DNA of 64,000 nucleotides from NCBI GenBank assembly GCA_017472965.1, contig JAFUNR010000004.1:1-64000 (forward strand), in the 5' to 3' direction. The position numbers were made by a program, and so were the translations under genes. This stretch comes from Oscillospiraceae bacterium (GTDB lineage Bacteria > Bacillota > Clostridia > Oscillospirales > Ruminococcaceae). Positions 19,068-30,926 of the stretch are shown one piece after another. The notes below the pieces were generated by a model, which saw only the letters and a list, made by a program, of their open reading frames with translations, did not search any database and was not told the origin of the DNA. Position 1 is the first letter of the stretch; each line of letters opens with the position of its first letter.

Positions 19068-19105
19068 AAGCAGCCTTGTCTTTTGGAAGACAGGCTGCTT
19101 TTTTT
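19068..19105 (+). terminator. Intrinsic terminator of the ftsEX-S41 operon
   Basis: AAGCAGCCT (19068-19076) pairs with AGGCTGCTT (19092-19100), with inner pairing and a T-run to 19105. Confidence 0.88.
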
Positions 19106-19259
19106 GGGTTTTGGAGCAGGACTTTTGATTGGATATGCACCCTCAGACAGTAAAAATGCCCGGCAGGCATGCACCGGTACATTGCGGCATACCTTGGAGA
19201 AAGAGATTCCGGATGCCGCAAACGGATGCCGGCATACCGCAGAAAGGAAAGGGATGCAG

Positions 19260-20063
19260 ATGCAGCAAGCAGTCGCCGCCGGACACGGCTTTTGGATGCC
19301 GGATGCCGGTGCAAGAATGGAGGCCGCCGCAAGGGTTCTGGAAAGTGAGGGTTATACCCGTCTGCCGGTGCAGCGTGCAGGGGATGCCGCGCTGGTGCTG
19401 CTGGGGGTTCCGGTGCACACATTGCAGCCGTGGGAGCCTGTACTGAAAACTCTTGTGCCGCAGACACTGCTTTTTGCCGGAGCACTCTCCGCACAGGCGC
19501 AGCAGCAGGCTGCGCGGCTTTCACTTTGTGCGGTCGATTATATGCAAAGCGAAGAATTGGCGCTTTTCAATGCCGTGCCCACCGCAGAGGGAGCGCTGGC
19601 CATCCTGCTTTCGGCCACCGACGGAATGCTCTGGCGTTCACGGGTGGTGCTGACAGGATACGGACGCATCGCAAAGGTGCTTGCCCCGCGTCTGCGGGCG
19701 CTGGGGACACAGCTCACCGTGGCGGCGCGCAGTCCGCTGGCACAGCTGCAGGCACAGACACTGGGATATGAGGCTGTTCCGCTTGCTGCGCTGCCGCAGC
19801 TGGCTGCACAGGCGGATTATCTGATCAATACGGTGCCGCATCCGGTGGTGGATACCGCTGTACTTGCCGCATTGCCGCAGCATGCCTTTGTGCTGGAACT
19901 TGCCGGTGCACCCGGCGGGGTGGATTTTGCTGCGGCACAGCAGTTGGGCATCCGCGCACAGAGCGCCCCCGGCCTGCCGGGAAAATATGCGCCCGCAGCA
20001 GCGGGGGAGGCTATTGGCCGTACTGTCTGCGAATATCTGCGCCGGCAGGTATTTATGAAGTAA
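19260..20063 (+). CDS. dpaA: Dipicolinate synthase subunit A
   Basis: 267 residues; with DpaB it makes dipicolinic acid for the spore core. The Rossmann-type nucleotide site is at VVLTGYGRIAKVLAPRL, and the C-terminal GLPGKYAPAAAGEAIG stretch is characteristic of SpoVFA. It is about 30 residues shorter than the Bacillus protein, with the missing part at the N-terminus. The ATG at 19260 is chosen because AAAGGAAAGGG lies at suitable distance; the ATG at 19254 is also possible. dpaB follows 18 bases downstream. Presence of this pair implies a spore-forming lineage, although one gene pair does not prove sporulation. Confidence 0.87.
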   Translation: MQQAVAAGHGFWMPDAGARMEAAARVLESEGYTRLPVQRAGDAALVLLGVPVHTLQPWEPVLKTLVPQTLLFAGALSAQAQQQAARLSLCAVDYMQSEELALFNAVPTAEGALAILLSATDGMLWRSRVVLTGYGRIAKVLAPRLRALGTQLTVAARSPLAQLQAQTLGYEAVPLAALPQLAAQADYLINTVPHPVVDTAVLAALPQHAFVLELAGAPGGVDFAAAQQLGIRAQSAPGLPGKYAPAAAGEAIGRTVCEYLRRQVFMK

Positions 20064-20081
20064 CAAAGAGAGGGGATTACC

Positions 20082-20654
20082 ATGGGGAAAAAGATCGCAT
20101 TTGCCATGTGTGGCTCATTCTGCACTTTTGAAAAGGTGCTGGCACAGGCCGAAAAGCTGGTCAGCAGCGGTATGCAGCTGGTGCCGGTGATGAGTACCGC
20201 TGCTGCCGAAACCGATACCCGTTTCGGCAGCAGTGCTTCTTTCAAGGCTCGGCTGTCGCGTCTTGCCAATGCATCCATCATCACCACGATCACCGATGCC
20301 GAACCGCTGGGCCCGCAGAAAATGGCCTCGGCGCTGCTTATTGCACCCTGCACCGGCAACACGCTTGGCAAGCTTGCCTGCGGCATTACGGATACCCCGG
20401 TCACCATGGCCGCCAAAAGTATGCTGCGTATCGGCCGGCCGGTGATCCTTGCCATATCCACCAATGACGGTCTGGGGGCATCTTTTCAGAACATCGGCCG
20501 GTTGATGAATACCAAAAATGTCTATTTCGTGCCGTTCGGGCAGGATGATGCTCTGCACAAGCCCTGCAGCCTGCAGGCGGATTTCTCCCTGCTGGAAAGC
20601 ACGGTGGAAAGCGCTCTCAACGGCAGACAGATCCAGCCGGTGCTTCTGGAGTGA
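20082..20654 (+). CDS. dpaB: Dipicolinate synthase subunit B (flavoprotein family)
   Basis: 190 residues, normal for SpoVFB. A flavoprotein-like fold is seen from MGKKIAFAMCGSFCTF, LIAPCTGNTLGKLACGITD and the TPVTMAAKSMLR stretch. It acts with DpaA in the mother cell to turn the dihydroxy-tetrahydrodipicolinate-type intermediate into dipicolinate. AGAGGGG precedes the ATG and it almost abuts dpaA, so the two are co-transcribed. A new promoter at 20671-20699 separates it from the M20 gene. In most genomes it is followed by asd/dapG-type genes; that is not so here. Confidence 0.9.
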   Translation: MGKKIAFAMCGSFCTFEKVLAQAEKLVSSGMQLVPVMSTAAAETDTRFGSSASFKARLSRLANASIITTITDAEPLGPQKMASALLIAPCTGNTLGKLACGITDTPVTMAAKSMLRIGRPVILAISTNDGLGASFQNIGRLMNTKNVYFVPFGQDDALHKPCSLQADFSLLESTVESALNGRQIQPVLLE

Positions 20655-22298: not shown

Positions 22299-23063
22299 TC
22301 AATCGGCGCCTTCCGCTGCGGAATAAAAGGCCGGCTCAGCTTCCGGGTGCGTGGTCCGCCATGCGTCGTAATCAGTGATTTTCACACTGTTAAGAAGCAC
22401 GGCAGTCTGTTCCGATCCTGTGGAACCGATGGCACGCACCGTATCCAGTCCATAAAAGACCTGTCCGAACACGGTGTGTACATTATCCAGATACGGCGCA
22501 CCGCCCACCTGCGCATAGGCCGTGATCACATCCTCACTCCAGCCCTCGGTACGCATCTGCTCCTGCAGTGCGGCAGGTACGCTGTCCGCGGGACAATTCA
22601 CCACAAAAAACTGGCTGTGGTTCTCTTCGCTGCCCGCCATGGCCAGCGCGCCGGTATAGTGGTGAACAAGGTCACTGCATTCCGGTGCAAAGCCGCTGCC
22701 CCAGATGCTTGCGCCGCCGTAGCCGTTGGTGTCACCGCTCTGGATGATGAAATCCTCGATGACACGGTGAAAATCCAGCCCGTCGTAAGCGCCCTGCCGC
22801 GCCAGCGTCACAAAATTCTGCACCGCCTGCGGTGCGGCATCCGGATACAGTACAGCGGAAAATTCCCCTGCCGCCGTATCAAAGACCGCTACAAGGCTGT
22901 CCTGTGCCGGCTGACGGAACTGCAGCACATCCACCGTCGGGATCACTGCGCCGTCGGCAGCGGTGGGCAGAGCCTCCGGCTGTTCGCTGCCGCAGCCGGC
23001 AAACAGCAGGCAGAGCAGCGCAGCCGCACACGCAAGGGCGCGACGGATAAAACGGAATTTCAT
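22299..23063 (-). CDS. Cyclophilin-type peptidyl-prolyl isomerase, lipoprotein
   Basis: 254 residues. A basic N-terminus plus a hydrophobic segment ends in the lipobox LFAGC, so Cys24 should be lipidated and the protein held on the outer face of the membrane. The cyclophilin domain shows FHRVIEDFIIQSGDTNG and SQFFVVNCPADSVP, consistent with cis-trans isomerisation of proline bonds to help fold exported proteins. AGGAGG precedes the ATG at 23063. The promoter is at 23116-23143. The gene converges on the M20 gene and diverges from the DUF1292 gene. Confidence 0.92.
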   Translation of the reverse strand: MKFRFIRRALACAAALLCLLFAGCGSEQPEALPTAADGAVIPTVDVLQFRQPAQDSLVAVFDTAAGEFSAVLYPDAAPQAVQNFVTLARQGAYDGLDFHRVIEDFIIQSGDTNGYGGASIWGSGFAPECSDLVHHYTGALAMAGSEENHSQFFVVNCPADSVPAALQEQMRTEGWSEDVITAYAQVGGAPYLDNVHTVFGQVFYGLDTVRAIGSTGSEQTAVLLNSVKITDYDAWRTTHPEAEPAFYSAAEGAD

Positions 23064-23115
23064 GGCGGACCTCCTGTGAAGCGGCGCACGGCGGCGCCGC
23101 AATACTCTTTTATAT

Positions 23116-23143
23116 ATTATAGCACAAAACGGCGGCGTGTACA
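23116..23143 (-). promoter_or_regulatory. Promoter of the cyclophilin gene
   Basis: Minus strand TGTACA (23143-23138), a 16-base spacer and TATAAT (23121-23116). Confidence 0.55.
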
Positions 23144-23202
23144 GGATACAGCTGTGAAAAAATGACGATTTCAGGAAACTGTTTTTCCTCTGCGTTTTCC
23201 GC

Positions 23203-23231
23203 TTGACGGCGGCGCTGTTTTTGAGTATACT
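23203..23231 (+). promoter_or_regulatory. Promoter of the DUF1292 gene
   Basis: TTGACG (23203-23208), a 17-base spacer and TATACT (23226-23231), 53 bases before the ATG. Confidence 0.7.
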
Positions 23232-23283
23232 ATGTACAGAACGACGGCGGATTATAACAGCCGTTCAAAAAGGAGGGACCCCC

Positions 23284-23595
23284 ATGACAGATATGACGGA
23301 TAACGAGATGGATTACACCCCGGATCTGATCACGCTGCTGGATGAGGATAATAACGAGCACGAGTTCGAGGTCATCGATGCGCTGGATTACGGCGATGAA
23401 CACTATCTCGCGCTGGTGCCTTATGCTGCCGATCCCGATGCGCTGGATGAGGAAGCCGAGCTGCTCATCATGCGTGTGGATGTGGATGAGGAGAACGAGG
23501 AGTATCTTTCCATCGTGGACGATGACGAAGAGCTTTATAACGTGGGCAGAGCCTTTGCCGAGCGTCTGGAAGAGTTCTACGACATCTCCGAATAA
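23284..23595 (+). CDS. DUF1292 family small acidic protein
   Basis: 103 residues, very acidic. The pattern DLITLLDEDNNEHEFEVIDA, then YLALVPY and VDEENEEYLSIVDDDEE, is that of the DUF1292 (YrzB) family, widespread in Firmicutes and often found next to ruvX/alaS-type housekeeping genes. Its role is unknown. AAGGAGG precedes the ATG at 23284; the open frame upstream lacks a better start. It has its own near-consensus promoter. A structured RNA candidate begins just after the stop. Confidence 0.88.
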   Translation: MTDMTDNEMDYTPDLITLLDEDNNEHEFEVIDALDYGDEHYLALVPYAADPDALDEEAELLIMRVDVDEENEEYLSIVDDDEELYNVGRAFAERLEEFYDISE

Positions 23596-23611
23596 AAAGA
23601 GTATTCAGCAT

Positions 23612-23795
23612 CCTGCCCTGTCGATTTGTTGCGTTCATGTTTAATCCTACACTTATGTAATTGGGAGTTTCTGTTCGCGGACGGACTGCAGACCTCCCCC
23701 GTTTGGGGAAGAAGGGAGCGCGAACTCCGAGACTGAGCGTACCCACCCTGCTTTGAATAAAGTAGGTTTTAATTGTTCGCAGACTTCAGGGCGGG
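23612..23795 (+). ncRNA. Structured RNA candidate: 6S-like RNA or leader of the sugar kinase gene
   Basis: Seen directly: CCTGCCCTG (23612-23620) pairs with CAGGGCGGG (23787-23795, one G:U), closing a 184-base domain. Inside, TGGG/CCCA (23662-23665 with 23742-23745), AGTTTC/GAGACT and GTTCGCG/CGCGAAC (23673-23679 with 23719-23725) build a long irregular arm capped by CCCC-GTTT-GGGG. A small hairpin (23747-23766) sits on the 3' side of the open middle. Size and closing-stem/bubble/apical-arm plan suit 6S RNA, the RNA polymerase regulator. I do not see a confident promoter, and the downstream terminator abutting a kinase gene also fits a cis-regulatory leader. It does not look like TPP or T-box leaders. 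This and the next site fill the 306-base gap 23596-23901. Confidence 0.5.
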
Positions 23796-23831
23796 ATTTT
23801 GTTCATTAAAAACGTGCAAGGCACTTTTGCT

Positions 23832-23869
23832 GCGGACGCTGCGTGTTTGCAGCGTCTGCTTTTGTTTTT
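23832..23869 (+). terminator. Intrinsic terminator or attenuator ahead of the ROK kinase
   Basis: GCGGACGCTGC (23832-23842) pairs with GCAGCGTCTGC (23849-23859, one G:U), followed by TTTTGTTTTT. It ends about 18 bases before the AAGGAGG of the kinase gene, so it ends the RNA upstream or controls read-through. A smaller hairpin (GTGC/GCAC with flanking A and T runs, about 23810-23827) precedes it. Confidence 0.82.
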
Positions 23870-23901
23870 GGAAAAAGAAGAAAATCAAGGAGGAGTAAAC
23901 C

Positions 23902-24774
23902 ATGCGTATCGGAGCACTGGAAGCCGGCGGCACCAAAATGGTGTGCGCTGTTGTTGAGGAAGGTCAGGTGACGGAGCGGATCTCTCTGCCCACCCGCAGC
24001 CCTGCCGAGACCATGCCGGAGATCATTGAATATTTTGCCGCGCAGCAGGTGGAAGCACTGGGCGTGGGCAGCTTCGGCCCGCTGGATCTGGATCGCAATT
24101 CCCCCACATGGGGCTATATCACCGCCACCCCCAAGGACGGCTGGCGCTTTTATGATCTGGCAGGCGAGCTGCAGCGCGCACTGGATATCCCTGTGGCGCT
24201 GGATACCGATGTCAACTGCGCGGCGCTGGGCGAGGCCCGTTTCGGCAGCTGTGTCGGCCTGGATGACTGTGTCTATATCACAGTGGGCACCGGCATCGGC
24301 ATGGGGGTGCTGTGCGGCGGACGGCTGATCCATGGAATGCAGCATCCCGAACTGGGGCATATTCCGGTGGCGCCGGTTTTCGGGGATAACTATCAGGGCT
24401 GCTGTCCGTATCACGGGCGCTGTCTGGAGGGTATGGCCAGCGGCAGTGCGCTGCGTGGCCGCTGGGGCATTCCTGCACAGGAAATGGCCGACCGTCCCGA
24501 GGTCTGGCAGCTGGAAGCCGAGTATCTGGCACAGGGCATCGTCACCTGTATTCTGGCATATGCGCCGCGGCGCATTGTGCTGGGCGGCGGTGTGGCGCAT
24601 CAGCCGCAGCTGCTGCCGCTGGTGCGTGCGGCGGTCACCCGTCAGCTGGCGGGCTATGTTTCCACCGAAGTTGTCAAGGACATGGATTCCTACATCGTTG
24701 CTCCCGCGCTGAATGATAATCAGGCGCTGCTGGGCTGCTATGAACTGGTGCGTGATCCCTCCGTACAGGGGTAA
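23902..24774 (+). CDS. ROK-family sugar kinase (fructokinase/mannokinase-like)
   Basis: 290 residues. An ATP-binding opening (EAGGTKMVCAV), the sugar site GHIPVAPVF with the zinc cluster CCPYHGRCLEGMASGSAL and the VGTGIGMGVLCGGRLIHG stretch are those of GmuE/ScrK-type ROK kinases, which phosphorylate fructose or mannose at O6. manA follows with one small gene between, so mannose released by the GH38 enzymes could be turned into mannose-6-phosphate and then fructose-6-phosphate. An AAGGAGG site precedes the ATG. No separate promoter is seen after the terminator-like hairpin at 23832-23869. A GlcNAc kinase role is less likely but open. Confidence 0.85.
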   Translation: MRIGALEAGGTKMVCAVVEEGQVTERISLPTRSPAETMPEIIEYFAAQQVEALGVGSFGPLDLDRNSPTWGYITATPKDGWRFYDLAGELQRALDIPVALDTDVNCAALGEARFGSCVGLDDCVYITVGTGIGMGVLCGGRLIHGMQHPELGHIPVAPVFGDNYQGCCPYHGRCLEGMASGSALRGRWGIPAQEMADRPEVWQLEAEYLAQGIVTCILAYAPRRIVLGGGVAHQPQLLPLVRAAVTRQLAGYVSTEVVKDMDSYIVAPALNDNQALLGCYELVRDPSVQG

Positions 24775-24821
24775 GCGTTCCGGTTTTGTATGGAGTTTAC
24801 TGAAACAGGGAGGTTTTTGCT

Positions 24822-25097
24822 GTGAAAAATGCCGTTGCAAAACCCGTGGAACTGAACAGGGAAGAGGATTACGACCTCATCTTGGAGCAGCTGCTGGCTG
24901 AAGCCCGTGCATGGCGTGCACAAAATCCCGCAGGCGGTGCACAGGATTTCATCGATCATGTGGGCCGCCGCCGCTGGATGTCCAACTTCGCAGATTACTG
25001 GAATATTCCCGAGGATGAACAGCTCTACCGTTTTCAGATCGCTCATATCGATCGCTTTCTTGCCGATATTTTTGAAAACTGTCTGCCGGAAACCTGA
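24822..25097 (+). CDS. Small protein of unknown function between ROK kinase and manA
   Basis: 91 residues starting at GTG 24822 with AGGGAGG in front. I do not recognise a family. It is a mixed-charge, aromatic-rich, soluble protein with probable helices (LNREEDYDLILEQLLAEARA, then RRRWMSNFADYW and RFQIAHIDRFLADIFEN), no membrane segment and no Cys cluster. It lies 47 bases after the kinase and 27 bases before manA, so it is almost surely co-expressed with both. A role as partner or regulator of the mannose step is a guess from context. Confidence 0.75.
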   Translation: MKNAVAKPVELNREEDYDLILEQLLAEARAWRAQNPAGGAQDFIDHVGRRRWMSNFADYWNIPEDEQLYRFQIAHIDRFLADIFENCLPET

Positions 25098-25124
25098 TCC
25101 GGCCCAAACAGAAAGGAATGCATC

Positions 25125-26087
25125 ATGCAGGCGCTGCTTTTTCTTGAACCGGTAAAAAAACAGACCATCTGGGGCGGCAATTCTCTTGCCGCCGAATACG
25201 GCTTCGGTACCCCCGGCGAATTCATTGCCGAGGCGTGGGCAGTCAGTGCCCATCCCGCAGGTGACTGCACCGTGACCGGCGGAGAATACGCCGGCAAGAC
25301 CCTGTCGCAGCTGTGGGCACAGGCTCCGGCTCTGTTCGGCTGTCCCGGTCAGCCGGATTTTCCGCTGCTGGTCAAATTCATCGATGCAGCCTCCGCGCTC
25401 AGCGTACAGGTGCATCCCGATGATGCCTATGCTGCTGCCAACGAGCCGCCGGTCAACGGGCAGCCCTGCCGCGGCAAAAGCGAGTGCTGGTACATCCTGC
25501 ACGCCGATCCCGGAGCGGCACTGCTGCTGGGTCATAACGCAAAAACGAAGCAGCAGGCACAGCAGATGATCGCCGAAGGCCGCTGGGATGCTCTGCTGCG
25601 CTCCGTTCCGGTAAAAAAAGGCGACTTTTTCCGCATCGATCCGGGTACTGTGCACGCCATCGGCGGCGGCATCCGCATTCTGGAGGTGCAGCAGAGCAGC
25701 GATATCACCTATCGCCTGTATGATTACGGTCGGCTGCAGAATGGAAAACCCCGTGAGCTGCATGTGGAAAAATCACTGGCGGTGATGACTGTCCCCGCCG
25801 CTGATGCTGCCGAGGAACGCAGCCCGCTGCCGCTGCAGGCGATTGCCGGCACCGCAGAGCTGGTGCTGCTGGAGCGCTGTCCCTACTTCACCGTGCAGCA
25901 GCTGACACTGGATGGCGAGGCGAAATTTGCCGGTGCAGAAACCTTTTTCGCCGTCACGGTGACGGAGGGCGAAGGCTTCCTCAACGGTACGCCGGTGAAA
26001 AAGGGACAGTCCTTTATCGTGCCCCACGGCACGGAAACACTGCGCTGGTGCGGCACGCTGCAGGCTGTCCTCAGCCAGCCGGTGTAA
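25125..26087 (+). CDS. manA: Mannose-6-phosphate isomerase, class I
   Basis: 320 residues, usual for the short Firmicutes form. Zinc and active-site features are visible: LSVQVHPDD (Gln and His), GKSECWY (Glu) and PGTVHAIGGG (His), on a cupin fold. It interconverts mannose-6-phosphate and fructose-6-phosphate in the cytoplasm. GAAAGGA precedes the ATG. Its place after the ROK kinase and close to two GH38 alpha-mannosidases in the window supports a catabolic role. The C-terminal half (ETFFAVTVTEGEGFLNGTPV) is the second cupin-like lobe. Confidence 0.93.
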   Translation: MQALLFLEPVKKQTIWGGNSLAAEYGFGTPGEFIAEAWAVSAHPAGDCTVTGGEYAGKTLSQLWAQAPALFGCPGQPDFPLLVKFIDAASALSVQVHPDDAYAAANEPPVNGQPCRGKSECWYILHADPGAALLLGHNAKTKQQAQQMIAEGRWDALLRSVPVKKGDFFRIDPGTVHAIGGGIRILEVQQSSDITYRLYDYGRLQNGKPRELHVEKSLAVMTVPAADAAEERSPLPLQAIAGTAELVLLERCPYFTVQQLTLDGEAKFAGAETFFAVTVTEGEGFLNGTPVKKGQSFIVPHGTETLRWCGTLQAVLSQPV

Positions 26088-26138
26088 GGTTTTTATCCGG
26101 AGCCCCTTTGAATTCGATATAAATGAGAGGTAAGCGAC

Positions 26139-28046
26139 ATGGAACATAAGCTGTACGCACCCCTGATGCTGAGTACGCTGGATGACGAGACCCGCCCCAT
26201 CTATCTGGAAAAGATGAAAAAGGCGGGTACGGATTTTGTTTTCATTGCGCCGAACCGCCTGTTCGGCGATGAAAACGAGCAGCAGTTCGCCAATTTTGAG
26301 AAAAGCCTGCGCTATTATCAGGAGAATGGCTATTCCTGCGGCGCATGGATCTCCACCATCGGCCTGTGCGGACGGCTTTCCGGCCATGACCTTGCACTGA
26401 TGAAGGATTTCGATCTGGTCAAGGGCATGCTCAACGAGGGCTATCCCGGCACCGACCAGTTCTGCTTCCTCAGCGACGGTCTGTTTGCCCATACGGTGGA
26501 GACCATCCGTCTGTGCGTGAACGCCGGTGCAAGGATGATCATGCTGGATGACGATCTGTGCCTTTCGCTGCGCGGTCTCGGCTGTGCCTGTGATAAGCAC
26601 ATGAAGCTTTTCCGTGAAAAATACCGTGAGCCCATCACCCGCGAGGAGATTTATAAGAAGGTGACGGGAGGCGCACCCAATCCCTGCCGCAGCGCATGGA
26701 TGGCAACGGTGGGGGATTCTCTGATCGATTTCTGTACCCGCCTGCGTGCGGAGGTGGATGCCATTGATCCCGCTATCCGTATGGGCTTCTGCACCGGCTA
26801 TACCTCATGGGATGAGGAGGGCGCCGATGCGCTGACACTGGCAAAGATCCTTGCCGGCAATACCCGCCCCTTCCTGCGGTTGACCGGTGCGCCCTACTGG
26901 GTGTGGACCGACCGCTTCAAGGGTCAGAATATGCAGTCCATCATTGAATTCGTGCGTCAGCAGGTGGATTGGTGCCGGGGCGTGGATATCGAGCTGTTCG
27001 ATGAAAACGACAGCTTCCCCCGTCCGCGCCATCTGATTCCGGCTTCCTACATGGAAATTTACGACCAGTGCCTGCGGTTTGCCTGTGATGTGGGCGCGTT
27101 CAAGTATATGTACGATTATACCTCCGGCCCCAACTATGAAAACGGCTACCTGCGGGCACATCTGGCAAATAAACCGCTGCGCGACTGGATCGATGCAAAC
27201 GCCCTGCCCGAAGCCGACGGCATCATCGTGGCGGATACCCAGCGCAAGCTGGAGCATATCACCCTGCCGGAGGATGGCGGCCATTGGCGGTACACCACCG
27301 AGGTGTTCCGCAACGGTCAGCGCTTCATCACCAAAAACTCGCTGCCGGTCAAGTACAGCGGCACCGACAACACCTGCGTGGTGTTCGGCGAGTGCGCCCG
27401 CTTTGTCGATCCCGCACAGTATAAGCAGGGCCTGATCCTGGATATCCCCGCTGCCCTGATCCTGCAGCAGCGCGGGTATGATGTGGGCCTTGTACAATGT
27501 GAGGAGAAGCTGCCCTGGTTTGAACACTTCGGCGAAAAGCAGATCGTGGGCATCTCCGAGGTGTGCAGATCCGGCGTTACCTACCGCGTGGAAGCAAGCG
27601 AAAAGGCGCAGGTGCTCAGTCACTATGTGTTCGAGGATAAGAGCGAGGCCCCCGGCTGTTACCGTTACGATGCGCCGGACGGCAGCCAATATCTGGTGTA
27701 TGCCTTTGACGGCGGCTCTGCCCCCACGATGGAAAGCGCCGTCTACTGCTCCTACTACCGGCAGCGCCAGCTGGCCGATGCCATCCGGGGGATGGGCGGC
27801 CGCATCCCCGCCGTGGCCTGCGAGTGCCCCGACCTGTATGTGCTGGCCTCTGCAGATAAAGACTCCGTATCGGTGTGGCTGGCCAACATCCGTGCAGATG
27901 TGGCCTACGCCCCCGTCTTTGAGCTGGCAGAGGAATACACCCGCTGCGAGGTCATCGGCGGCAGTGCCGTGCTGCAGGGCAAAACGATTGCCTTTGAAAC
28001 AGATATTTCCGCCTATGCGTGTGCGGGCTTCCGTCTGTATAAATGA
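26139..28046 (+). CDS. Putative TIM-barrel glycoside hydrolase of unrecognised family
   Basis: 635 residues, no signal peptide. I do not recognise the family with confidence. The first part looks like a TIM barrel: LEKMKKAGTDFVFIAPNRLF, then GARMIMLDDDLCL (an acidic cluster at a strand end), RMGFCTGYTSWDEEGAD and GVDIELFDENDSFPRPRH, each a candidate catalytic acid site. The last 150 residues look like a beta-sandwich. GAGAGG lies before the ATG. The GH20 gene starts 30 bases after its stop, so both likely act on the same imported glycan. Similar barrel-plus-sandwich plans occur in GH42-like enzymes. The activity is unknown. Confidence 0.55.
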   Translation: MEHKLYAPLMLSTLDDETRPIYLEKMKKAGTDFVFIAPNRLFGDENEQQFANFEKSLRYYQENGYSCGAWISTIGLCGRLSGHDLALMKDFDLVKGMLNEGYPGTDQFCFLSDGLFAHTVETIRLCVNAGARMIMLDDDLCLSLRGLGCACDKHMKLFREKYREPITREEIYKKVTGGAPNPCRSAWMATVGDSLIDFCTRLRAEVDAIDPAIRMGFCTGYTSWDEEGADALTLAKILAGNTRPFLRLTGAPYWVWTDRFKGQNMQSIIEFVRQQVDWCRGVDIELFDENDSFPRPRHLIPASYMEIYDQCLRFACDVGAFKYMYDYTSGPNYENGYLRAHLANKPLRDWIDANALPEADGIIVADTQRKLEHITLPEDGGHWRYTTEVFRNGQRFITKNSLPVKYSGTDNTCVVFGECARFVDPAQYKQGLILDIPAALILQQRGYDVGLVQCEEKLPWFEHFGEKQIVGISEVCRSGVTYRVEASEKAQVLSHYVFEDKSEAPGCYRYDAPDGSQYLVYAFDGGSAPTMESAVYCSYYRQRQLADAIRGMGGRIPAVACECPDLYVLASADKDSVSVWLANIRADVAYAPVFELAEEYTRCEVIGGSAVLQGKTIAFETDISAYACAGFRLYK

Positions 28047-28076
28047 TTTTGCGCCGAATACGGAAAGGAACAGAGA

Positions 28077-29714
28077 ATGAAAAAGATGAGGGATTTCGAC
28101 CATTTCGGGATCATGCTGCCGGTGGCCGGCAGGGCCTCCATGAGCATGCAGAGCATGAAGGAGTTCTTCCGTATCATCAGCAGAATGGGCTATCGCGAGG
28201 TGTTCCTGTATACCGAGGACAAAATGGAGGTGAGCGGCGAGCCGTACCATGGCTATATGCGCGGCCGCTATTCCAAGGCGGAGCTGCGGGAGCTGGATGC
28301 CTTTGCCGCCTCTGTGGGCATTGAGCTGATCCCCTGCGTGCAGACGCTGGCACATCTTTCCGGCCTTTCACTGTGGCAAACCGGCGCAGTAGGGAAGGAC
28401 GGCTACAATATGGACGCCGAGGATGTGCTGCTGGTCGATGACGAGCGCACCTACACCTATATCGATAACCTGTTCGCCGCCTGCCGGGAGTGTTTCCGTA
28501 CCGATAAGATCCACATCGGCATGGACGAAGCCCATCACCTCGGCCTTGGCCGTCATCTGGATGCCCACGGCTACGAGACCAAGATCTCCATCATGAAGCG
28601 GCATCTGGCGCGTGTCAACGGGCTCGCCGCAAAGTACGGCTACGAAAATCCGATGATCTGGTCGGATATGCTGTTCTACGGCTGGAACAACGGCGTCTAT
28701 GTGGTGCCGGAGCAGCCCGTGCCCGAGGAATACAAAAATGCGCTGCCGGAAAATGTGATCCCTGTTTTCTGGGATTATTACCACGATCAGGAAAAGGATT
28801 TCGGCGATATGCTCCGGATGCATCAGCAGATCAGCCAAAGGACCTGGTTTGCCGGCGGCATCTGGAACTGGACCGGCTTTATCCCGAATAACTACTACAC
28901 CGTCAAATCCATGCTGCCCGCGCTGGATGCCTGCCGCAATAACGGCATCCGCGATGTATTTATGACCTTCTGGTGCGGCGGCGAATGCTCGTATTTTGCC
29001 AATCTGCCCAGCCTGTTTTATCTGGCCGAGTACGCCCGCGGCAATGCCGACGAAGCGGCTATCAAGGCGAAGTTCGAAAAAATGTTCGGCATCGGCTACG
29101 ATGATTTCTGCCGGCTGGATGCCGTCAATTTCATCACCGACAACTGGAAGACGGTGACCCACCCGCGCAACGGTGCGGATTATATGCTGTATGCCGATCC
29201 TTTCCGCGGTTTTCTGGATTACACCGTGCGCCCCGGCGGCGGCGAGACCTTTGCCGCGGTGGGTACACAGCTTGCCGCCACGGCGAAAAAATCCAGGAAA
29301 TACGGCTATCTGTTCGAGATGGGCGCAGCGCTTTGCGGCGTGATGGAGCTGAAGTATGAACTGGGGCTGAAAACACGCGCGGCCTATCAGGCGAACGACA
29401 GGACGGAACTGGCCCGTCTTGCAGCAGAGGATTACGCTCAGCTGCCGGCGCGCATCCGTGCCTTCCGCAAGGCTTTTGAAAAGCAGTGGATGAAGGAGAA
29501 CAAGCCCGGCGGCTTTGAATACTGGACGGTGATCCTCGGCGGTCTGGAGGAGCGTGCCCGCCATCAGCGCCGCCGTCTGCTGGATTATCTGGCCGGTAAA
29601 ACCAATGCCATAGAGGAGCTTTCGTGGGAGCTGCTGCCCTACCGCGAAAAGGAACAGAGCTGGTATTACCGCAGCTTTCTGCAGAGCATCAGCCTGCAGG
29701 CTAAGCACATCTGA
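28077..29714 (+). CDS. GH20-like beta-N-acetylhexosaminidase
   Basis: 545 residues. KIHIGMDEAHHLGLGRH carries the Asp-Glu pair typical of GH20, where Glu is the acid and Asp positions the N-acetyl group. The surrounding plan is a barrel, with IIWSDMLFY-like (PMIWSDMLFYGW), FAGGIWNWTG and FMTFWCGGECSY strands. It would remove terminal GlcNAc or GalNAc from oligosaccharides in the cytoplasm, since there is no signal peptide. GGAAAGGA precedes the ATG. It follows the unknown GH by 30 bases and ends at the strong terminator at 29741-29777. NagA and NagB can use the released sugar once it is phosphorylated. Confidence 0.82.
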   Translation: MKKMRDFDHFGIMLPVAGRASMSMQSMKEFFRIISRMGYREVFLYTEDKMEVSGEPYHGYMRGRYSKAELRELDAFAASVGIELIPCVQTLAHLSGLSLWQTGAVGKDGYNMDAEDVLLVDDERTYTYIDNLFAACRECFRTDKIHIGMDEAHHLGLGRHLDAHGYETKISIMKRHLARVNGLAAKYGYENPMIWSDMLFYGWNNGVYVVPEQPVPEEYKNALPENVIPVFWDYYHDQEKDFGDMLRMHQQISQRTWFAGGIWNWTGFIPNNYYTVKSMLPALDACRNNGIRDVFMTFWCGGECSYFANLPSLFYLAEYARGNADEAAIKAKFEKMFGIGYDDFCRLDAVNFITDNWKTVTHPRNGADYMLYADPFRGFLDYTVRPGGGETFAAVGTQLAATAKKSRKYGYLFEMGAALCGVMELKYELGLKTRAAYQANDRTELARLAAEDYAQLPARIRAFRKAFEKQWMKENKPGGFEYWTVILGGLEERARHQRRRLLDYLAGKTNAIEELSWELLPYREKEQSWYYRSFLQSISLQAKHI

Positions 29715-29740
29715 GCTCTCTTTGAGAAAAAAGCACAGAA

Positions 29741-29777
29741 AAAATATCCCCGGAGCGGTGAGCTCCGGGGATATTTT
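29741..29777. terminator. Bidirectional terminator between GH20 and GH18 genes
   Basis: 16-bp perfect stem: 29741-29756 pairs with 29762-29777. T-runs occur in both directions between the convergent genes. Confidence 0.93.
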
Positions 29778-29813
29778 TAAGACCATCTATCATTTCTGCA
29801 AAAGGCGAAAAGA

Positions 29814-30884
29814 TCAGTTTTCATGCGCCGCCTGCCATGCGGCGGGGATCAGGGTGTGCAGGTCATCCATGTCGTAGTGCCAGAACATCAGGCCCAGCAG
29901 GCCTTCCTTTTTGATGTACTGTACCTTGTGCCACAGGGATTCCTCGTCATCCAGCGTGATGAAATCCTTCCTGCTCTCACTGTACCACCAGCTGGCCTTG
30001 GCATCGTCGTCCCAGTAGCGGACATAGCCGTTGTCCTTCAGATACGGCAGCAGGTTGGATTGCTGATCGCCGCCCGGCAGCTGCAGGTAGAATTCCCGTG
30101 CAAAGGCAGGGGTCAGCAGGCCGTTATTTTCCGGCAGGCAATGGGCATAGTGCTTGGGGTAAATGCCGCTGCCGATGACGATCTTCTCGTCGGGAACGCC
30201 CCAATCGCGGAACAGTTCCACCGCATACTGGGCGCACAGAGCCTCGGGATCGCCGGCGGTGGGGTAGGTGGAGGTGTGGTGACCGACAGGCAGCCCCTTG
30301 TCGTCATGCAGCTCAAAGCAGGCAAAGGTGCCGCGCAGATCGTAGGTCATCACATTGATGTAATCCACCAGCGGCACCAGCTTTTCCACCTCAACGGTAT
30401 CAATGACAAACCGCTGGGCAGATTGGGCACAGGTCAGCAGATAATGCCGGCCGGTACGGGCTTCTTCTTCATCCATGCAGCGGCGGACCTCGCGCATCAT
30501 CATGGTGTAGGTGTATTTATCCACCGGGCGGCCGCGCACGCTGCCCAGTGTCATGGTGGGAACCTCCCAGTCGTTGTCCAGACCGTCCAGATCGTAGGTT
30601 TTCAGCAGCTCCATCAGCGTTTCGGCAAAGCGCTTGCGGCCTTCGGCACGCACAAAGACATCGGAGCAGTGGGCGCAGCCGCCCAGCATGAACAGAAACT
30701 TGATATTGGGGTTGATTTCGTGATAGCGCCGGATGCAGGAAAGATCCAGATCGTCATTCATCAGCGCGGCGGTGCCGTCCGGCAGAACCTGAATACTGAA
30801 CAGGTTGACGACATCCAGAATACGGATATCCTCCTCCCGCATTTTGTGGATGGTTTTCAGCGAGGCGTAAGTGATCAGTTTCAT
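29814..30884 (-). CDS. GH18 endo-beta-N-acetylglucosaminidase or chitinase-like protein
   Basis: 356 residues. D100-G-L-D-N-D-W-E107 (DGLDNDWE) is the DxxDxDxE catalytic motif of GH18, and NVMTYD the later conserved strand. GH18 enzymes cleave the beta-1,4 link within chitobiose, as in the core of N-glycans. There is no signal peptide, so it would act on imported glycans. The ATG at 30884 has AAAGGAG at good distance; the in-frame TTG two codons earlier is not used. It is last in the minus-strand set nagA-dehydrogenase-GH18. An ENGase-type role on N-glycan cores fits the neighbours better than chitin, but is inferred. Confidence 0.85.
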   Translation of the reverse strand: MKLITYASLKTIHKMREEDIRILDVVNLFSIQVLPDGTAALMNDDLDLSCIRRYHEINPNIKFLFMLGGCAHCSDVFVRAEGRKRFAETLMELLKTYDLDGLDNDWEVPTMTLGSVRGRPVDKYTYTMMMREVRRCMDEEEARTGRHYLLTCAQSAQRFVIDTVEVEKLVPLVDYINVMTYDLRGTFACFELHDDKGLPVGHHTSTYPTAGDPEALCAQYAVELFRDWGVPDEKIVIGSGIYPKHYAHCLPENNGLLTPAFAREFYLQLPGGDQQSNLLPYLKDNGYVRYWDDDAKASWWYSESRKDFITLDDEESLWHKVQYIKKEGLLGLMFWHYDMDDLHTLIPAAWQAAHEN

Positions 30885-30926
30885 CGTCAACTCTCCTTTG
30901 AAAGTCTTTTTATGAAGAACAGAGAT

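Follow-up and report, generated by a model that had tools for sequence, protein, structure and literature searches.

Which RNA lies just ahead of the ROK family kinase gene in this window (the whole 64,000-nucleotide stretch of DNA that was analysed), and how is it made? The sequence-only reading of the locus described a closed, 6S-like structure followed by a perfect terminator, and proposed either a 6S RNA gene or a leader sensing a metabolite from mannose or amino-sugar metabolism. It called for comparison with the Rfam 6S and riboswitch models and with the downstream genes of relatives, and made both options depend on covariance support. The features of the locus are collected in Table 1.

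Table 1. Features of the locus, with positions in the window and supporting evidence.
Feature	Position	Strand	Evidence
Promoter candidate TTGACG-17-TATACT, before the DUF1292 gene	23203..23231	+	Consensus scan; shuffle p 0.04 (260 nt before DUF1292)
DUF1292 gene (103 aa, acidic)	23284..23595	+	PF06949, 62.9 bits (cut-off 24)
6S RNA, as assigned here	23607..23801	+	RF00013, full length, 32 bits, below cut-off; model R1, 133.6 bits, E 8.4e-33
Predicted pRNA template, 5' side of the central bubble	23635..23650	+	Motif CCnAC
Intrinsic terminator	23832..23869	+	Pattern: 12-pair stem 23832-23859, then T-rich tail TTTTGTTTTT
ROK family kinase gene	23902..24774	+	PF00480; neighbour common only to the same-genus relative, outside the 6S unit

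Identity of the structured RNA

Comparison with the Rfam 6S model (RF00013) yielded a match over model positions 1-187 of 187, with an E value of 5.5e-5 in the 351 nt searched and of 1.0e-4 when the whole genome was searched. The score of 32 bits nevertheless falls short of the Rfam gathering score of 46.4 bits, which is a threshold set by curators and no property of the molecule. Standard annotation would miss the RNA because of this score, and a search of the whole window at gathering thresholds matched no family. At E up to 10, RF00013 matches nothing else in the genome, and a second 6S copy was rejected on this ground. Examination of its own genome together with 60 relatives revealed a match at E up to 1 in 52 of the 61, above the cut-off in 39, and each matching genome carries a single copy except one (G005), which carries two. 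The latter pair, equal in score and about 3 kb apart with a DUF1292 copy ahead of each (L076, G005:C3:1074000-1083000), is either a tandem duplication or an assembly artefact.

A covariance model (R1) was built from 22 aligned 6S RNAs of other genera, leaving out the RNA of this locus and that of the same-genus genome G001. Of the 47 pairs in the consensus, 27 have both partners changed in one or more of the sequences, and these compensatory changes back a structure made of a closed stem and a terminal stem. Aligned to this consensus, the left-out RNA has a few non-standard pairs. R1 recovers it with the score given in Table 1; of 19 other loci submitted to the model, 18 score at least 104 bits and one (L075) gives no match. 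The whole-genome runners-up reach 26.4 bits (E 7.6e-4, 67 nt) and 13.9 bits (E 1.2) and were taken as chance. Both the R1 score and the common DUF1292 neighbour make the RNA an orthologue of the above-threshold 6S RNAs of relatives. The copy in G001 is 84% identical across 191 nt, and in these two RNAs the inner end of the closing stem reads GUCGA and ACUUC, against UUCGA and ACGGC in most relatives; this alteration, we think, accounts for part of the low Rfam score.

The RF00013 match, the covariation among relatives, the R1 score and the related copy in G001 leave hardly any doubt that positions 23607-23801 code for the 6S RNA of this gut bacterium's genome. The first option of the sequence-only reading is borne out by the model scores, the covariation, the single RF00013 match and the pRNA-template motif described below. 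A phage origin was also considered and rejected, a phage collection having given no match.

Fold, terminator and predicted pRNA template

The minimum-energy fold of the RNA is closed from 23610 to 23797. For 23607-23801 the energy is -68 kcal/mol (z -2.62), equalled by 2 of 200 shuffles, and with the terminator added (23600-23869) z reaches -3.38, equalled by none of 200. Both the closed structure and the strong terminator ahead of the kinase that had been read from the letters are therefore real. Folding energy alone is not decisive for the nature of the RNA; the comparative evidence of covariation and R1 score is. A terminator-like site also follows the 6S RNA in 46 of 60 loci (one further locus was omitted, its sequence being too short) as against 31 of 295 control windows, and is lacking in the remaining 14.

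On the 5' side of the central bubble, the predicted pRNA GUAGGAUUAAACAUGA would start at C23650 (nt 44 of the RNA) and be read off UUUAAUCCUACA, its initial letters being GUAGGAUU. Its GG at positions 4/5 matches the pattern of known pRNAs, which have GG at 4/5 or 5/6 and, immediately before the start, an adenine that is conserved (PMC8414754). Of the 61 loci, 57 contain the CCnAC motif and 54 have its last C at nt 40-46; it is also present in all 30 of the wider-class loci introduced below. This 6S RNA is predicted to bind polymerase and to template a pRNA.

Relation to the downstream kinase

A leader that senses a mannose or amino-sugar metabolite and regulates the kinase through the terminator would explain why the RNA sits just ahead of the ROK kinase and manA, with the terminator near the start codon. 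Against it stands the identity of the RNA, which is a 6S RNA by covariance models. Furthermore, no riboswitch family matched positions 23560-23910 at E up to 10, where the only Rfam matches besides 6S are two at chance level, neither of them a riboswitch. At least 1 kb of downstream sequence could be inspected in 58 of the 61 loci. Among the 57 other than the present one, ROK and manA follow the 6S RNA only in G001, in the same order, and the other 56 gave no ROK or manA match in the sequence inspected (tblastn, E 1e-3). The position ahead of these genes, which had been suggested for checking, is thus not conserved in relatives. The model scores, the absence of a riboswitch match and the restriction of the downstream ROK gene to one genus rule out the leader for all practical purposes. 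The kinase gene, which lies past the terminator, is a neighbour that the 6S RNA has in this lineage only.

The genes at 23902-30890 code for the ROK kinase, a phosphomannose isomerase, a GH20-type hydrolase and, on the opposite strand, a GH18 hydrolase, and look like a cluster for the use of amino sugars or mannose; a 635-amino acid protein encoded at 26139-28046 has no Pfam match. On the other side of the RNA, at 19083-20654, two adjoining genes code for proteins with NAD-binding and flavoprotein domains, which look like the two dipicolinate synthase subunits, a spore gene pair.

Association with DUF1292 genes

The 6S RNA starts 11 nt after the stop codon of the DUF1292 gene, which the sequence-only reading passed over. 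Of the 52 loci fetched by 6S, 50 have a DUF1292 gene immediately ahead of it in the same orientation, 48 of them identified by tblastn within 400 nt upstream and two more (G058 and G039) by a profile made from the others; neither approach detected one upstream of 6S in G022 and G037. The reverse search led to the same order, all nine named contigs fetched by DUF1292 (from Subdoligranulum, Gemmiger, Pygmaiobacter and relatives) bearing a 6S RNA right after this gene. In a wider draw from the class, 124 of 148 genomes gave a 6S match. Among the best 30 of these loci DUF1292 is upstream in nine, with a gap of at most 36 nt in four of the nine, so the link extends past the order and is far from universal.

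The gap between the two genes was measured in 57 pairs including the present one. It does not exceed 36 nt in 41 of them and is wider in the other 16, a limit set after the values had been seen. In G017 the DUF1292 frame overlaps the 6S region (gap -38) and the locus was placed in the short-gap class. No PDB chain matched the DUF1292 protein by sequence at E up to 1. A literature search, covering few subscription papers, found none that pairs 'DUF1292' or 'UPF0473' with '6S RNA' and six in which DUF1292 occurs at all; the link may already be published elsewhere.

Promoter patterns and transcription

Promoter calls throughout are matches to the consensus. The candidate before DUF1292 is the only promoter-like site (at least 9 of 12) on the + strand in 22800-25200, and the statement that the kinase has no visible promoter therefore stands. 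No promoter of the 6S RNA's own was found in this genome, the best site in the 80 nt before it scoring 6 (shuffle p ~0.8). In the same 80 nt, a score of at least 10 is reached in none of the 41 short-gap loci as compared with 11 of the 16 long-gap loci (Fisher 2.4e-8, a value that is too kind because the loci are related), and a score of at least 9 in 3 of 41 and 12 of 16, respectively. The 11 long-gap loci indicate that independent transcription of 6S exists in this group.

Equal stretches of 110 nt were also compared. Among short-gap loci (n=40, one being omitted for lack of upstream sequence), a score of at least 10 occurs before DUF1292 in 24, before 6S in one and within the gene in none; the corresponding counts in the 16 long-gap loci are 13, 12 and one. 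These stretches favour the region before DUF1292 over that before 6S (Wilcoxon p 4e-6). On the other side of the balance, short-gap loci beating their shuffles at 0.05 number only 20 of 41 before DUF1292, and 4 of 41 do so before 6S. A promoter inside DUF1292 was rejected, as none appeared in the scan of this locus or in the 40 short-gap loci.

The tree built from the 57 6S RNAs has little support, with 4 of its 54 inner branches starred. The gap class switches at least nine times on it, with one independent pair on well-supported branches, and this weak tree is unable to date gains or losses of promoters. Two loci that are sisters on it have unlike designs: in L079 (G006) the gap measures 68 nt and TTGATT-17-TATAAT precedes 6S, and in L069 (G029) it measures 7 nt and such a site is missing.

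The promoter pattern, the conserved order, the terminator and the sole + strand promoter candidate of the scanned region led us to infer a single transcript running from DUF1292 through 6S to the terminator, and we consider it likely that the two genes are co-transcribed here. Weighing against the overall picture are the Rfam score below the cut-off, the dependence of the promoter calls on consensus matches, the kinship of the loci, the weak tree, the gap limit chosen afterwards and the 14 loci that lack a terminator-like site. The main alternative is a promoter of the 6S RNA's own, concealed in the 3' end of DUF1292 and too unlike the consensus for a simple scan. The good sites just before 6S in long-gap relatives and the four short-gap loci that beat their shuffles there speak for it; the poor best site at this locus, the short-gap loci that all stay below a score of 10 and the outcome with equal-length stretches make it rather unlikely. 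Read from the sequences themselves, like the identity of the RNA and the gene order, the promoter pattern points to co-transcription followed by processing. With good confidence, we thus regard the RNA as a 6S RNA that is made as the 3' portion of a transcript shared with DUF1292 and then cut out.

Transcription would start from the candidate promoter ahead of DUF1292, and a single transcript would carry DUF1292 and then 6S before ending at the terminator, after which nucleases would excise the 6S RNA. Imitating an open promoter, 6S RNA binds to the housekeeping RNA polymerase holoenzyme, and the copying of a pRNA sets it free again (PMC8414754, PMC3879012). The excised RNA would likewise hold this holoenzyme, until a short pRNA is transcribed from the predicted start in the central bubble and the polymerase lets go of the RNA.

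The sequence-only reading had set a strong 6S match with an independent promoter against the leader; the 6S identity held up and the independent promoter was not found, which leaves room for some expression of the kinase by read-through. In E. coli, transcription reading through from 6S supplies the downstream gene. Here, a leaky terminator would let the 6S unit supply transcripts of the kinase and manA, an addition to the DUF1292-6S transcript and no replacement for it. Only 32 nt separate the T tract from the kinase start, the scan shows no promoter there, and G001 has the same gene order; yet the terminator pattern is strong and the kinase promoter may simply be non-consensus. We regard read-through as plausible, if not quite the likelier outcome.

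Discussion

The RNA resembles 6S/SsrS RNA (RF00013) in its full-length match, its layout of closing stem, bubble and terminal stem-loop, its pRNA-template motif and its single copy, and differs in the score below the cut-off, the genus-specific change at the inner end of its closing stem and the absence of a visible promoter of its own. In cyanobacteria, purK and 6Sa are co-transcribed. The 6Sa/Yfr7 RNA offers a precedent, lying, as here, directly downstream of a conserved protein gene on the same strand, whereas the gene there is purK and the phylum is different (PMC1242208). With the 6S locus of lactic acid bacteria, the present one shares a conserved gene order, a terminator in most species and the conserved GG of the pRNA, which is a predicted one here; that locus lies between rarA and uspA and is described as probably monocistronic, unlike this one with its DUF1292 neighbour (PMC8414754). 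Northern blots of Clostridium acetobutylicum showed several bands for 6S, which were read as processed forms (PMC3879012).

The RNA belongs to a known family despite its score below the cut-off, and the place that it occupies behind DUF1292 is conserved and apparently lacks a promoter. Only one feature is unusual, its apparent production as the tail of the DUF1292 transcript; the setting is mildly surprising.

A bolder reading, which we put forward as speculation with little probability, makes DUF1292 and 6S a functional unit in Clostridia, the 6S RNA of many genera arising only as the processed 3' end of DUF1292 mRNA. A ribosome terminating on DUF1292 would then sit on the 5' arm of the stem that closes 6S. 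Maturation of 6S would in this way be gated by translation, and the DUF1292 protein, which is acidic, may have a role of its own in the RNA polymerase-6S pathway.

Identification of the RNA as 6S removes a false riboswitch lead, and low-scoring 6S genes of these Clostridia can be located simply through the conserved DUF1292-6S order. For DUF1292, a domain of unknown function, a conserved tie to 6S would be a first clue. A question that also arises is whether an abundant regulatory RNA can rely on the promoter of an mRNA together with processing.
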